A DNA stretch of 64,000 nucleotides from Pseudotabrizicola algicola (GTDB lineage: Bacteria; Pseudomonadota; Alphaproteobacteria; Rhodobacterales; Rhodobacteraceae). This document shows positions 7,107 to 47,619 of the stretch, piece by piece. The notes below the pieces were generated by a model. The model had not been told where the DNA came from. It was given only the letters and a program-made list of their open reading frames with translations, and did not search any database. A program made the translations under genes and the position numbers. The stretch lies in NCBI RefSeq assembly GCF_010915705.1, contig NZ_JAAIKE010000003.1:248001-312000 (forward strand), in the 5' to 3' direction. Position 1 is the stretch's first letter; each line of letters starts with the position of its first letter.

Positions 7107-7137
7107 TTGACATCAGATCGCCAATTGGGCCAATTGG
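7107..7137 (+). promoter_or_regulatory. Candidate nrd promoter with tandem CCAATTGG palindromes
   Basis: A consensus -35 hexamer TTGACA lies at 7107-7112. Two identical 8-bp palindromes, CCAATTGG, follow at 7121-7128 and 7130-7137, separated by one base, exactly where the -10 region should be. I cannot name a good -10. The arrangement looks like a repressor site over the promoter of the riboswitch transcript. It does not match the NrdR box consensus I know. Confidence 0.4.
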
Positions 7138-7320
7138 TAGCGTCATGGTGACCCGGGGCGACTCGGGGATGAAAAGGGAAGCCGGTGCGGGTCGTGACCC
7201 AAAGCCGGTGCTGCCCCCGCAACTGTAAGCGGCGAGCGACGCTGAGATGCCACTGGGCCAGGTGCTCGGGAAGGCCAGCCGAGCCCCGACCCGCGAGCCA
7301 GGAGACCTGCCCTGACACGA
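7136..7320 (+). ncRNA. Cobalamin (B12) riboswitch
   Basis: The hallmark segments of the adenosylcobalamin riboswitch appear in order: AAAAGGGAAGCCGGTG at 7172-7187, CCCCCGCAACTGTAA at 7214-7228, and the B12 box GAGCCAGGAGACCTGCC at 7295-7311. Ends are approximate. It sits about 100 bases before nrdH and therefore controls nrdHIEF. Downstream pairing such as GCGGG(GGCT)CCCGC near 7361-7374 may form the expression platform. Known logic: cobalamin binding switches the downstream genes off. Here that would silence a B12-independent reductase when B12 is available. Confidence 0.93.
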
Positions 7321-7423
7321 GACGACCGAAACCATGCGGCGGGCATGGGGCGTGTTCAGGGCGGGGGCTCCCGCTCGGTTCCGTGCCTGTTCCCGCAAGA
7401 CATTTCTACAAGGGACACAGGGC

Positions 7424-45624: not shown

Positions 45625-45778
45625 GGCACTCTCCTGCGCCTATCTCTAGCCGTTGAATTACGAAATTGAAACATATGGCCCGCATGCGACACGTCCGCGT
45701 GAGCATGAGGTTACAATGCTTGAGAGCGGGGCTGCGCACGCTCATGTGATAGCCAAGACGAAGAAGAGGAGGCCCCCG

Positions 45779-46465
45779 ATGGCGCAACTGCGCAAGATTC
45801 TGCTGGTGGATGACGATGACGATCTGCGCGAGGCGCTGAGCGAACAACTGGTCATGACCGAAGATTTTGATGTGTTCGAAGCCAGCAATGGGGCCGAGGG
45901 CATGGAAAAGGCCAAGGCCGCGCTTTACGATCTGGTCATCCTCGATGTGGGTCTGCCCGATACCGACGGGCGCGAATTGTGCCGCCGGATGCGCAAGCAG
46001 GGGGTGAAATGCCCGATCCTGATGCTGACCGGACATGACAGTGATTCGGATACCATTCTGGGTCTGGACGCGGGCGCGAATGATTACGTGACCAAACCGT
46101 TCAAGTTTCCGGTCCTTCTGGCCCGCATCCGCGCGCAATTGCGCCAGCATGAACAATCGGAAGACGCGATCTTCCAGCTTGGCCCCTATACCTTCAAACC
46201 GGCGCAGAAGATGCTGCTGGATGACAAGGAAAAGAAGATCCGGCTGACGGAGAAAGAGACCAACATCTTGAAATTCCTCTATCGCGCACAATCTGGGGTT
46301 GTGGCGCGGGATGTTCTGCTGCACGAGGTCTGGGGCTATAACGCGGGGGTCACCACCCACACGCTCGAAACGCATATCTACCGTTTGCGGCAGAAAATAG
46401 AGCCCGATCCGTCAAATGCGCGCATTTTGGTCACAGAAAGCGGCGGATATCGCCTGGTGGCCTAA
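45779..46465 (+). CDS. OmpR-family response regulator (orphan)
   Basis: A 228-residue response regulator. The receiver has the acidic pocket DDDDD at residues 11-15, the phosphorylation site D56 in LVILDVGLP, and the conserved Lys in NDYVTKPF. The C-terminal winged helix includes KETNILKFLYRAQSGVVARDVLLHEVWGY and ETHIYRLRQKIEPDPSNARILVTESGGYRL. The start at 45779 has AGAGGAGG upstream. No histidine kinase gene is adjacent. Target genes unknown. Confidence 0.9.
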   Translation: MAQLRKILLVDDDDDLREALSEQLVMTEDFDVFEASNGAEGMEKAKAALYDLVILDVGLPDTDGRELCRRMRKQGVKCPILMLTGHDSDSDTILGLDAGANDYVTKPFKFPVLLARIRAQLRQHEQSEDAIFQLGPYTFKPAQKMLLDDKEKKIRLTEKETNILKFLYRAQSGVVARDVLLHEVWGYNAGVTTHTLETHIYRLRQKIEPDPSNARILVTESGGYRLVA

Positions 46466-46506: not shown

Positions 46507-46605
46507 GTTGAGAGTGAATACATCGGTTCCCCTTGCCGTGTCGGGGTCATGACATGGCACCTCCCTGTTGGACTCGGCCGGGCCTCGTGCCCGGCCTTTT
46601 TTTTT
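46507..46605 (+). ncRNA. Candidate small RNA 1 (CCTCCCTG module with terminator)
   Basis: ACCTCCCTGTTGGACT at 46559-46574 is followed immediately by a terminator: GGCCGGGC (46576-46583) pairs with GCCCGGCC (46589-46596), then nine T. The same 16-mer recurs at 46682 with another terminator. The 5' end is uncertain; TTGTCG at 46473 with TATACC at 46495 (16-base spacer) could be its promoter. The CCUCCC stretch is complementary to a Shine-Dalgarno sequence. Confidence 0.6.
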
Positions 46606-46645
46606 CCGGCAGCGGCGGTCTTTGTGAAAATCTTTCCCCCCTCGC

Positions 46646-46671
46646 GGAACTTTTCCGGCGCGCGCCGCGTT
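46646..46671 (+). promoter_or_regulatory. EcfG-like promoter of candidate small RNA 2
   Basis: GGAAC at 46646-46650 and CGTT at 46668-46671 are separated by 17 bases, matching the alphaproteobacterial general stress sigma consensus. Transcription would start near 46679, right at the repeat. Confidence 0.45.
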
Positions 46672-46679
46672 TCCCTTGC

Positions 46680-46729
46680 ATACCTCCCTGTTGGACTTTG
46701 CCCGGACCTTATGGTCCGGGTATTTTTTT
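46680..46729 (+). ncRNA. Candidate small RNA 2 (CCTCCCTG module with terminator)
   Basis: The second copy of ACCTCCCTGTTGGACT is at 46682-46697. CCCGGACC (46701-46708) pairs with GGTCCGGG (46713-46720) around TTAT, followed by TA and seven T. With the upstream stress-type promoter this would be a transcript of about 50 bases whose unpaired 5' end is the repeat. The two terminators share layout but not stem sequence, so the 16-mer is conserved for its own sake. Confidence 0.6.
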
Positions 46730-46830: not shown

Positions 46831-47619
46831 ATGACCTTCACCCTTGCCACATGGAACATCAATTCCGTCCGCCTGCGCGAAGGTCTGGTCACCCGCCTGA
46901 TGGCCGAGGAACAGCCCGACATCCTGTGCCTTCAGGAATGCAAGAGCCCGGTCGAGAAGATCCCGGTCGAGCAGTTTCAGGCGCTGGGCTACCGATACAT
47001 GGTGGCGCGCGGGGAAAAGGGCTACAATGGCGTGGCGATCCTGTCCAAGCTGCCGATCATGGATGCGGGGGACCGCGATTTTGCCCGCATGGGCCATGCC
47101 CGCCATGTCGCGGCGCGGCTGGAAAACGGGGTGACGATCCACAACTGCTATGTGCCGGCAGGCGGTGACATCCCCGACCGGGAGGTGAACGCCAAGTTCG
47201 GGCAGAAGCTCGATTTTCTGACCGACATGCGCGAATGGTGCCGCTGGGACAGGCCGGACCGGTCGATCCTTGTGGGCGATCTCAACATCGCGCCGCGCGA
47301 GGATGATGTCTGGAGCCACAAGGCCCTGCTGAAGATCGTCAGCCATACCCCGATCGAGGTGGAGCATCTCTATCAGGTGATGGAGGCGGGCGGCTGGCAG
47401 GACATCACCCGCAAGGATATTCCGAGCGGGCTGCTCTATAGCTGGTGGTCCTACCGCGCCGCCGACTGGGATGCCGCCGACAAGGGCCGCAGGCTCGACC
47501 ATATCTGGGCGACGCCCGATATTGCCAATGCGGGCCATTCCAGCCGCATCCTGCGCCCCGTGCGCGGCTGGCTGCAACCGTCGGACCATGTGCCGGTGTT
47601 CGCGACCTTCGATCTGTGA
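46831..47619 (+). CDS. xth: Exodeoxyribonuclease III
   Basis: A 262-residue AP endonuclease/exonuclease. WNINSVRLR, CLQECK (catalytic Glu), GDLNIAPREDDVW and the C-terminal SDHVPVFATF (Asp-His) are all visible, as is RRLDHIWAT. It repairs abasic sites and trims 3' ends. AAAGGAGC precedes the ATG. It is convergent with the GT2 gene, six bases apart. Confidence 0.95.
   Translation: MTFTLATWNINSVRLREGLVTRLMAEEQPDILCLQECKSPVEKIPVEQFQALGYRYMVARGEKGYNGVAILSKLPIMDAGDRDFARMGHARHVAARLENGVTIHNCYVPAGGDIPDREVNAKFGQKLDFLTDMREWCRWDRPDRSILVGDLNIAPREDDVWSHKALLKIVSHTPIEVEHLYQVMEAGGWQDITRKDIPSGLLYSWWSYRAADWDAADKGRRLDHIWATPDIANAGHSSRILRPVRGWLQPSDHVPVFATFDL

Follow-up and report, generated by a model that had tools for sequence, protein, structure and literature searches.

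Work on SorX and SorY has treated them as two distinct stress RNAs, both from a single model species, Rhodobacter sphaeroides. In the literature that forms our background (PMC8625941, PMC6238624, PMC8307010, PMC7866481, PMC4263372, PMC5869019, PMC5036791, PMC9438474, PMC5830050, and PMC4603805), processing of SorX by RNase E and its repression of potA are known for R. sphaeroides only, binding of SorX by Hfq has been reported in the same species, and takP is the published target of SorY there; the regulation of potA and of takP is taken from these sources. Here, we followed up a prediction made on a 64,000-nucleotide stretch of the Pseudotabrizicola algicola genome (the whole of which is called the window below), namely that two new small-RNA modules sharing a 16-mer lie in tandem at its positions 46507-46729. 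The first of these modules, copy 1, is already known, and the new part is the second one, copy 2. We consider it likely that the two are sibling trans-acting sRNAs with a shared pairing sequence and different inputs, copy 2 being an apparently undescribed, shorter sister of SorX in which the pairing sequence has been kept. No description of copy 2 was found in the open-access literature searched; the founding SorX and SorY papers are outside that scope and could mention a tandem sibling.

The first copy and its relation to SorX

The 16-mer ACCTCCCTGTTGGACT is present as two exact matches on the forward strand, at 46559-46574 (copy 1) and 46682-46697 (copy 2), with a spacing of 123 bases, and no further match was found in the window with up to three mismatches allowed. 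Because at least two matches were also obtained in 5 of 100 shuffles at this three-mismatch setting, the evidential weight lies in the exactness of both copies and in their conservation elsewhere. An intrinsic terminator follows each 16-mer within 1-3 nt, that of SorX at 46576-46605 (+; stem 46576-46596 with 8 pairs, then nine T) and that of copy 2 at 46699-46729 (+; stem 46699-46722 with 10 pairs, then seven T), which confirms the predicted pair of 16-mers, each with its terminator. The terminators had also been called strong but unrelated; both are present, but their stems are partly alike, the direct repeat reaching into the stem (24 nt, 88% identity between the copies). The region is also spanned by open frames of the ORF list.

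Copy 1 was identified with Rfam family RF02784 (SorX), which matches 46529-46602 (+) over model positions 1-73 of 73 and with 83.1 bits against a cut-off of 46.6, the nine-T run carrying the RNA to 46605. The idea that both modules are new is thereby contradicted for copy 1, and SorX begins at 46529 rather than at 46507, where the predicted interval starts; the promoter-type site of copy 2 lies at 46646-46671. In the fold of 46529-46604 (z -3.78), the 16-mer of copy 1, a C-rich pairing region, is unpaired in the centroid structure save for its first one or two bases and holds a single weak 2-bp hairpin in the minimum-energy structure. The 5' end of SorX is located 64 nt past the stop codon (ending at 46465) of its host gene, an ORF at 45779-46465 (+) encoding an OmpR-family response regulator with the Pfam domains Response_reg and Trans_reg_C, for which the Pfam query covered 45785-46462 and started two codons past the ATG. 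This gene, the counterpart of RSP_0847 in R. sphaeroides, starts with the ATG at 45779, an alternative in-frame TTG at 45653 being possible. Copy 1 is the known stress RNA SorX in its usual position after an OmpR-family gene: among the best 80 Rhodobacteraceae ompR loci of a longer list (named contigs, up to two mismatches to 14 bases), the motif lies within 700 nt after the ompR gene in 61, five of which contain it twice, and was not found in the other 19, which include a locus shortened by a contig end (L070). On the basis of the R. sphaeroides literature, SorX would arise by processing of the ompR-family mRNA at its 3' end.

The 16-mer is conserved well beyond this locus. A 13-base part of it (CCTCCCTGTTGGA) was detected in 183 of 198 genomes sampled from the family, a sample that includes the window genome (G000) and G002; the reversed control was detected in 5 of the 198. 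Four such sites are present in the window genome, the two described here and those at G000:C1:335837 and C1:680591. The third site (L001 1470-1553, minus strand) gives a full-length SorY match of 81.3 bits, under the cut-off of 111, and is probably SorY. This third sibling had been missed in the prediction. Given such a score for a full-length relative, the SorY cut-off may be too strict for this family. At the fourth site (L020, G000:C1:680591-680603, minus strand), an inverted repeat rich in G+C and then TTTT come after CCTCCCTGTTGGA; the site may represent another sibling or chance. In G066, which we infer to be R. sphaeroides 2.4.1, the motif sites at C4:2598257 and C4:1632683 are 33 and 41 nt after the SorX and SorY 5' ends given in PMC6238624.

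Several other model matches were considered. The SorX model also matches G000:C1:507200 with 33.3 bits, but the printed stretch of this locus (L136) has a terminator and no CCTCCC, and we regard it as a false match. At class level, the SorX model reached E ≤ 0.001 in 91 of 289 genomes, five of which pass the cut-off; other sRNAs of Alphaproteobacteria with a comparable layout may contribute to this number. Weak Rfam similarities to Betaproteobacteria toxic sRNA (30.5 bits, cut-off 50), NmsRb (30.3, cut-off 52), suhB/mmgR (25, cut-off 41), and anti-hemB (24.8, cut-off 49.5) were set aside as evidence of membership because they probably stem from a shared layout of C-rich stretch and terminator. 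Elsewhere in the window, a cobalamin riboswitch was found at 7129-7328 (+), with 116.7 bits.

Copy 2 as a shorter module

Copy 2 is predicted to be a separate sRNA of about 48-52 nt at 46678-46729 (+), in which the 16-mer forms or lies close to the 5' end and the terminator follows, its start being placed from promoter spacing. The comparison with Rfam covariance models that had been proposed as a check put copy 1 above the SorX cut-off but left copy 2 under those of both SorX (RF02784, 37.3 against 46.6 bits) and SorY (RF02651, 38.5 against 111 bits). The 5' hairpin of SorX is missing from copy 2, its positions being deleted in the alignment and no such hairpin appearing in the fold of the predicted RNA (46680-46729, 50 nt; z -4.64), which consists of the terminator and a mostly open 16-mer.

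Of the 16 genus genomes, 13 carry copy 2 as a module of its own, 11 of which were recovered with up to two mismatches and two (G001 and G012) read by eye, their altered cores adjoining an unchanged promoter and terminator layout; it is missing from G007, G009, and G014. In G003, the module is at a contig edge, with xth present and ompR absent. The exact 14-base core is retained in 10 of the 13 modules. Relatives that lack the 16-mer while the terminators persist had been named in the original prediction as evidence against it; mostly the opposite was found, yet the core is changed in 3 of the 13 (G001, G006, and G012), with promoter site and terminator kept. For R. sphaeroides (G066), no second copy was detected in the 3.5 kb fetched around SorX with up to three mismatches. 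The base after GGAC agrees between the two copies in eight of the nine genus genomes in which both cores are exact and both copies were fetched, an agreement too weak to suggest co-evolution of the copies.

The stem of copy 2 shows covariation. The alignment holds 25 of 28 sequences, one of them (L024) shortened, with L030 left out for its longer stem, L115 as a duplicate of L148, and L150 for its altered core. Over the 24 distinct sequences, 91.5% of the stem cells are paired and both sides have changed in 7 of 10 pairs; none of 500 shuffles matched any of five stem measures, and controls in which the stem was slid dropped to 17-56%. The exact 14-mer is present in 21 of the 25 sequences, most of which were picked for the motif, a bias that affects motif conservation and not the stem.

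Two other arrangements were observed. Copy 2-like modules lie about 1.4-1.5 kb from SorX at L055 5178 and L140 2479, with GTGGTATGCA ahead of the 16-mer, and L137 and L139 (G037 and G162) each carry a tandem pair of hairpin-bearing SorX-like copies, another kind of duplication.

Promoter-type sites and competing explanations

The strict SigT/EcfG motif consists of GGAAC and CGTT with a spacing of 15-17 nt, as given in PMC5869019. Copy 2 of the window agrees with it: GGAAC, a -35-like element at 46646-46650 (+), is followed after 17 nt by CGTT, a -10-like element at 46668-46671 (+) that ends 11 nt before CCTCCC. The reading of the region as small-RNA modules is supported, and this separate site had been missed. 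Within the genus, all 13 copy 2 modules have a promoter-type site upstream. Eight are EcfG-type (GGAAC-N16/17-SGTT in G000, G001, G002, G004, G005, G011, G012, and G013), with CGTT in four and GGTT in four as the -10 element, and the distance from their end to the core is 9 or 11 nt. Five are FNR-type (TTGAY-N4-RTCAA in G003, G006, G008, G010, and G015), with 35 nt from the end of the box to the core in 5/5. Dinucleotide shuffles of the upstream stretches (2000 rounds) gave a mean of 0.0045 EcfG-type sites (maximum 1) and a mean of 0 FNR-type sites (maximum 0), figures for which the definitions were settled after sight of the sequences and the genomes, being related, are non-independent.

With 35 nt between box and 16-mer, the FNR-type sites agree with class II FNR spacing. 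Transcription from either type of site would begin at the 16-mer or up to a few bases ahead of it, and the resulting RNA would measure about 48-52 nt. This spacing argument is weakened because hairpin-bearing SorX has nearly the same FNR spacing (36-38 nt) in L144, L145, L146, L149, and L151, where SorX follows an FNR box located at the ompR stop codon. The data presented here concern sequence, conservation, synteny, promoter-type sites, covariation of the stem, and complementarity at the takP ribosome-binding site; we infer the transcription of copy 2, its start, its control by EcfG, and its targets.

Copy 2 could also be a second terminator of the ompR-sorX transcript, carrying a duplicated 16-mer and freed by processing of read-through RNA. 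Its place in tandem on the same strand, right behind SorX, would suit such an origin, for which CcsR1-4 in the ccaF1 3' UTR, as described in the literature, offer a parallel. We nevertheless regard this as unlikely, as SorX is already closed by its strong nine-T terminator and the promoter-type site is found at near-constant spacing in 13/13 genus copy 2 modules but not before the 15 genus SorX copies compared, a set that does not contain the SorX of G003 (EcfG-type 0/15, FNR-type 0/15). In L140, moreover, the second copy is about 1.4 kb away from SorX, though with no strict promoter site.

A very improbable explanation is that the promoter serves xth and that the 16-mer and terminator form an attenuator in the xth leader. 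This exodeoxyribonuclease III-like gene (46831-47619, +; Pfam PF03372), a downstream landmark outside the RNA, is the nearest gene downstream on the module's strand both in the window and in many relatives, though not every relative has it near the module. In G001, G004, and G013, copy 2 is followed instead by an opposite-strand frame of 431 codons that looks MFS-like by reading; xth was undetected in the G001 and G004 loci, and the G013 locus has only a fragment at its far end. The 16-mer is also that of the trans-acting SorX and SorY, which speaks against an attenuator.

The FNR-type sites extend beyond the genus. The pattern TTGAYNNNNRTCAA-N30-42-CCTCCCTG matched 12 of 394 family genomes, and its reversed control gave no match in the same 394. 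The ompR gene is present in 11 of these 12 loci; in the remaining one, L154, xth is present without it. Seven are hairpin-free (L143, L147, L148, L150, L152, L153, and L154), with a spacing of 35-39 nt, and the other five are the hairpin-bearing SorX loci named above. Although only CCTCCCTG was demanded, TTGGAC continues the core in 10 of the 12, and 5 of these 10 are of the type without the hairpin. Together with the retention of 16-mer, promoter-type sites, and compensatory stem changes amid diverged flanks, this makes it highly unlikely that copy 2 is a functionless, decaying duplicate of SorX, an explanation to which its loss from 3 of 16 genus genomes, the changed core in three others, and its absence from the 3.5 kb around SorX of R. 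sphaeroides would lend themselves.

Two sibling sRNAs with different inputs remain the preferred reading. In the window genome, NepR is encoded between frames read as PhyR and EcfG, an ECF sigma factor (L141), and the phyR-nepR interval contains GGAAC-N17-CGTT in both directions; among the 30 such sites no more than 500 nt from NepR in 14 loci of the genus, 26 have CGTT as the -10 element. NepR was found in 13 of the 16 genus genomes, and its presence fails to separate the groups because it occurs not only in 8/8 genomes with an EcfG-type site but also in 5/8 without one. Outside the genus, the EcfG pattern is uninformative because the reversed control matched about as often (19 of 394 family genomes, against 18 of 394 for the pattern). 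R. sphaeroides has a PhyR cascade in which PhyR is described as acting mainly in membrane stress and not as a general stress system, so that "general stress" may be too broad a label here. With regard to FNR, an FnrL ChIP-seq site has been reported at RSs2461 (SorX) in R. sphaeroides, the effect of which its authors were unable to establish. Together with TTGCGTGAGATCAA at the ompR stop codon of R. sphaeroides, this site indicates an oxygen input to the SorX locus in one studied species. Among six further copy 2 sites (L138 and L140 from other genera; L066, L068, L094, and L117 on named contigs), a strict FNR box was present in two and an EcfG-type site in none, and L068 has a degenerate FNR box. 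The window's own copy 2 has no strict FNR box in the place tested.

Because FNR-type sites also occur in other genera and EcfG-type sites are established only within the genus, the EcfG type looks derived. In the ompR tree, seven of the eight EcfG-type genomes and G014, which is without copy 2, form one clade (support 97/99), and G012 branches outside it; the xth tree has two FNR-type genomes, G003 and G006, in an open fork among the EcfG-type rows (85/93), and the FNR-type rows form a single clade in neither tree. As both trees leave the direction unsettled, an order of FNR first and EcfG later is an inference and not proof. On balance, we lean toward copy 2 as a minimal sRNA, with the pairing sequence at its 5' terminus ahead of the terminator, whose promoter was swapped within the genus, from an oxygen-responsive FNR-type site in relatives to an EcfG-type site of the general-stress kind in the clade of the window, with pairing sequence and terminator constant. 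If true, one set of targets would pass from one stress signal to another with the RNA unchanged.

Target pairing and comparison with known RNAs

By their shared sequence, copy 1, copy 2, and SorY would use ACCUCCCUGUUGGACU to base-pair with ribosome-binding sites, probably those of transporter mRNAs, with Hfq probably bound at the U-run and translation of the paired mRNAs reduced. The takP gene of R. sphaeroides was recognized by the match of its product to residues 1-365 of PDB 2hzk, an entry that is itself labeled SmoM and that we take to be TakP. Between the ribosome-binding site of takP and the 16-mer region, a duplex of 12 bp with a 2x2 loop forms at -22.8 kcal/mol, which lends support to the predicted anti-Shine-Dalgarno pairing. 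When the 3' part of the seed was shuffled, 4 of 500 versions equaled this pairing, which therefore extends beyond the CCUCCC core. Among 211 ORF starts, takP ranked second, after an ORF of locus L234. As a group, DctP genes paired no better than other ORFs (p 0.17), in a comparison that used the longest ORF over the middle of each locus, clearly on the wrong strand in several loci. No close TakP was found in the window genome, the best of 12 DctP loci having 36% identity, and the potA family gave 126 and 131 matches in the two genomes.

Searches for CAACAGGGAGG-N0-12-ATG in the genus mostly returned the antisense of the sRNAs themselves. The sole other match in the window genome (L189 1501, G000:C1:699096) precedes a second exodeoxyribonuclease III-like frame. 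In L176 and L182 (G002 and G009), a gene for a substrate-binding protein carries CAACAGGGAGG, an 11-base complement of the motif, at its start; this long match is present in two of eight genus homologues of the gene and missing in the other six.

Turning to the described systems, the C-rich motif and the clustering after a gene recall CcsR1-4 and the cuckoo RNAs, to which the original prediction had likened the modules. The motif of those RNAs is CCUCCUCCC according to that prediction, whereas the motif here is ACCUCCCUGUUGGACU, and neither copy gave an Rfam match to a CcsR/cuckoo-type family, which leaves this kinship unsupported. GsrN of Caulobacter, an EcfG/SigT-dependent RNA compared here by description only, resembles copy 2 in its EcfG-type promoter and in a C-rich region exposed near the 5' end; on the other hand, the 16-mer of copy 2 is that of SorX. 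A position beside phyR-nepR-ecfG is typical of GsrN, though not in C. crescentus itself, and copy 2, on contig C23, is away from the NepR locus on contig C1. E. coli FnrS, an sRNA activated anaerobically by FNR, is an analogy for the FNR-type modules only, and no sequence relation is claimed.

The closest systems are SorX and SorY. SorX of R. sphaeroides (RSs2461, RF02784) is like copy 1 in sequence, hairpin, terminator, and place after an ompR-family gene; copy 2 shares with it the 16-mer and the position of the terminator but differs in having no 5' hairpin, a score under the cut-off, and its own promoter-type site. SorY (RSs1543, RF02651) has the same 16-mer and, in R. sphaeroides, is transcribed from a promoter of its own, but its 5' part is longer and it is described as RpoHI/RpoHII-dependent, whereas copy 2 has an EcfG- or FNR-type site. 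Together, these comparisons suggest that SorX, SorY, and copy 2 are a sibling set in which one pairing sequence is connected to several inputs, namely 3' UTR processing, RpoH-type control, and apparently EcfG or FNR. Because the promoter of copy 2 has apparently been swapped within one genus, the rewiring of an sRNA between regulons becomes testable in two close species.
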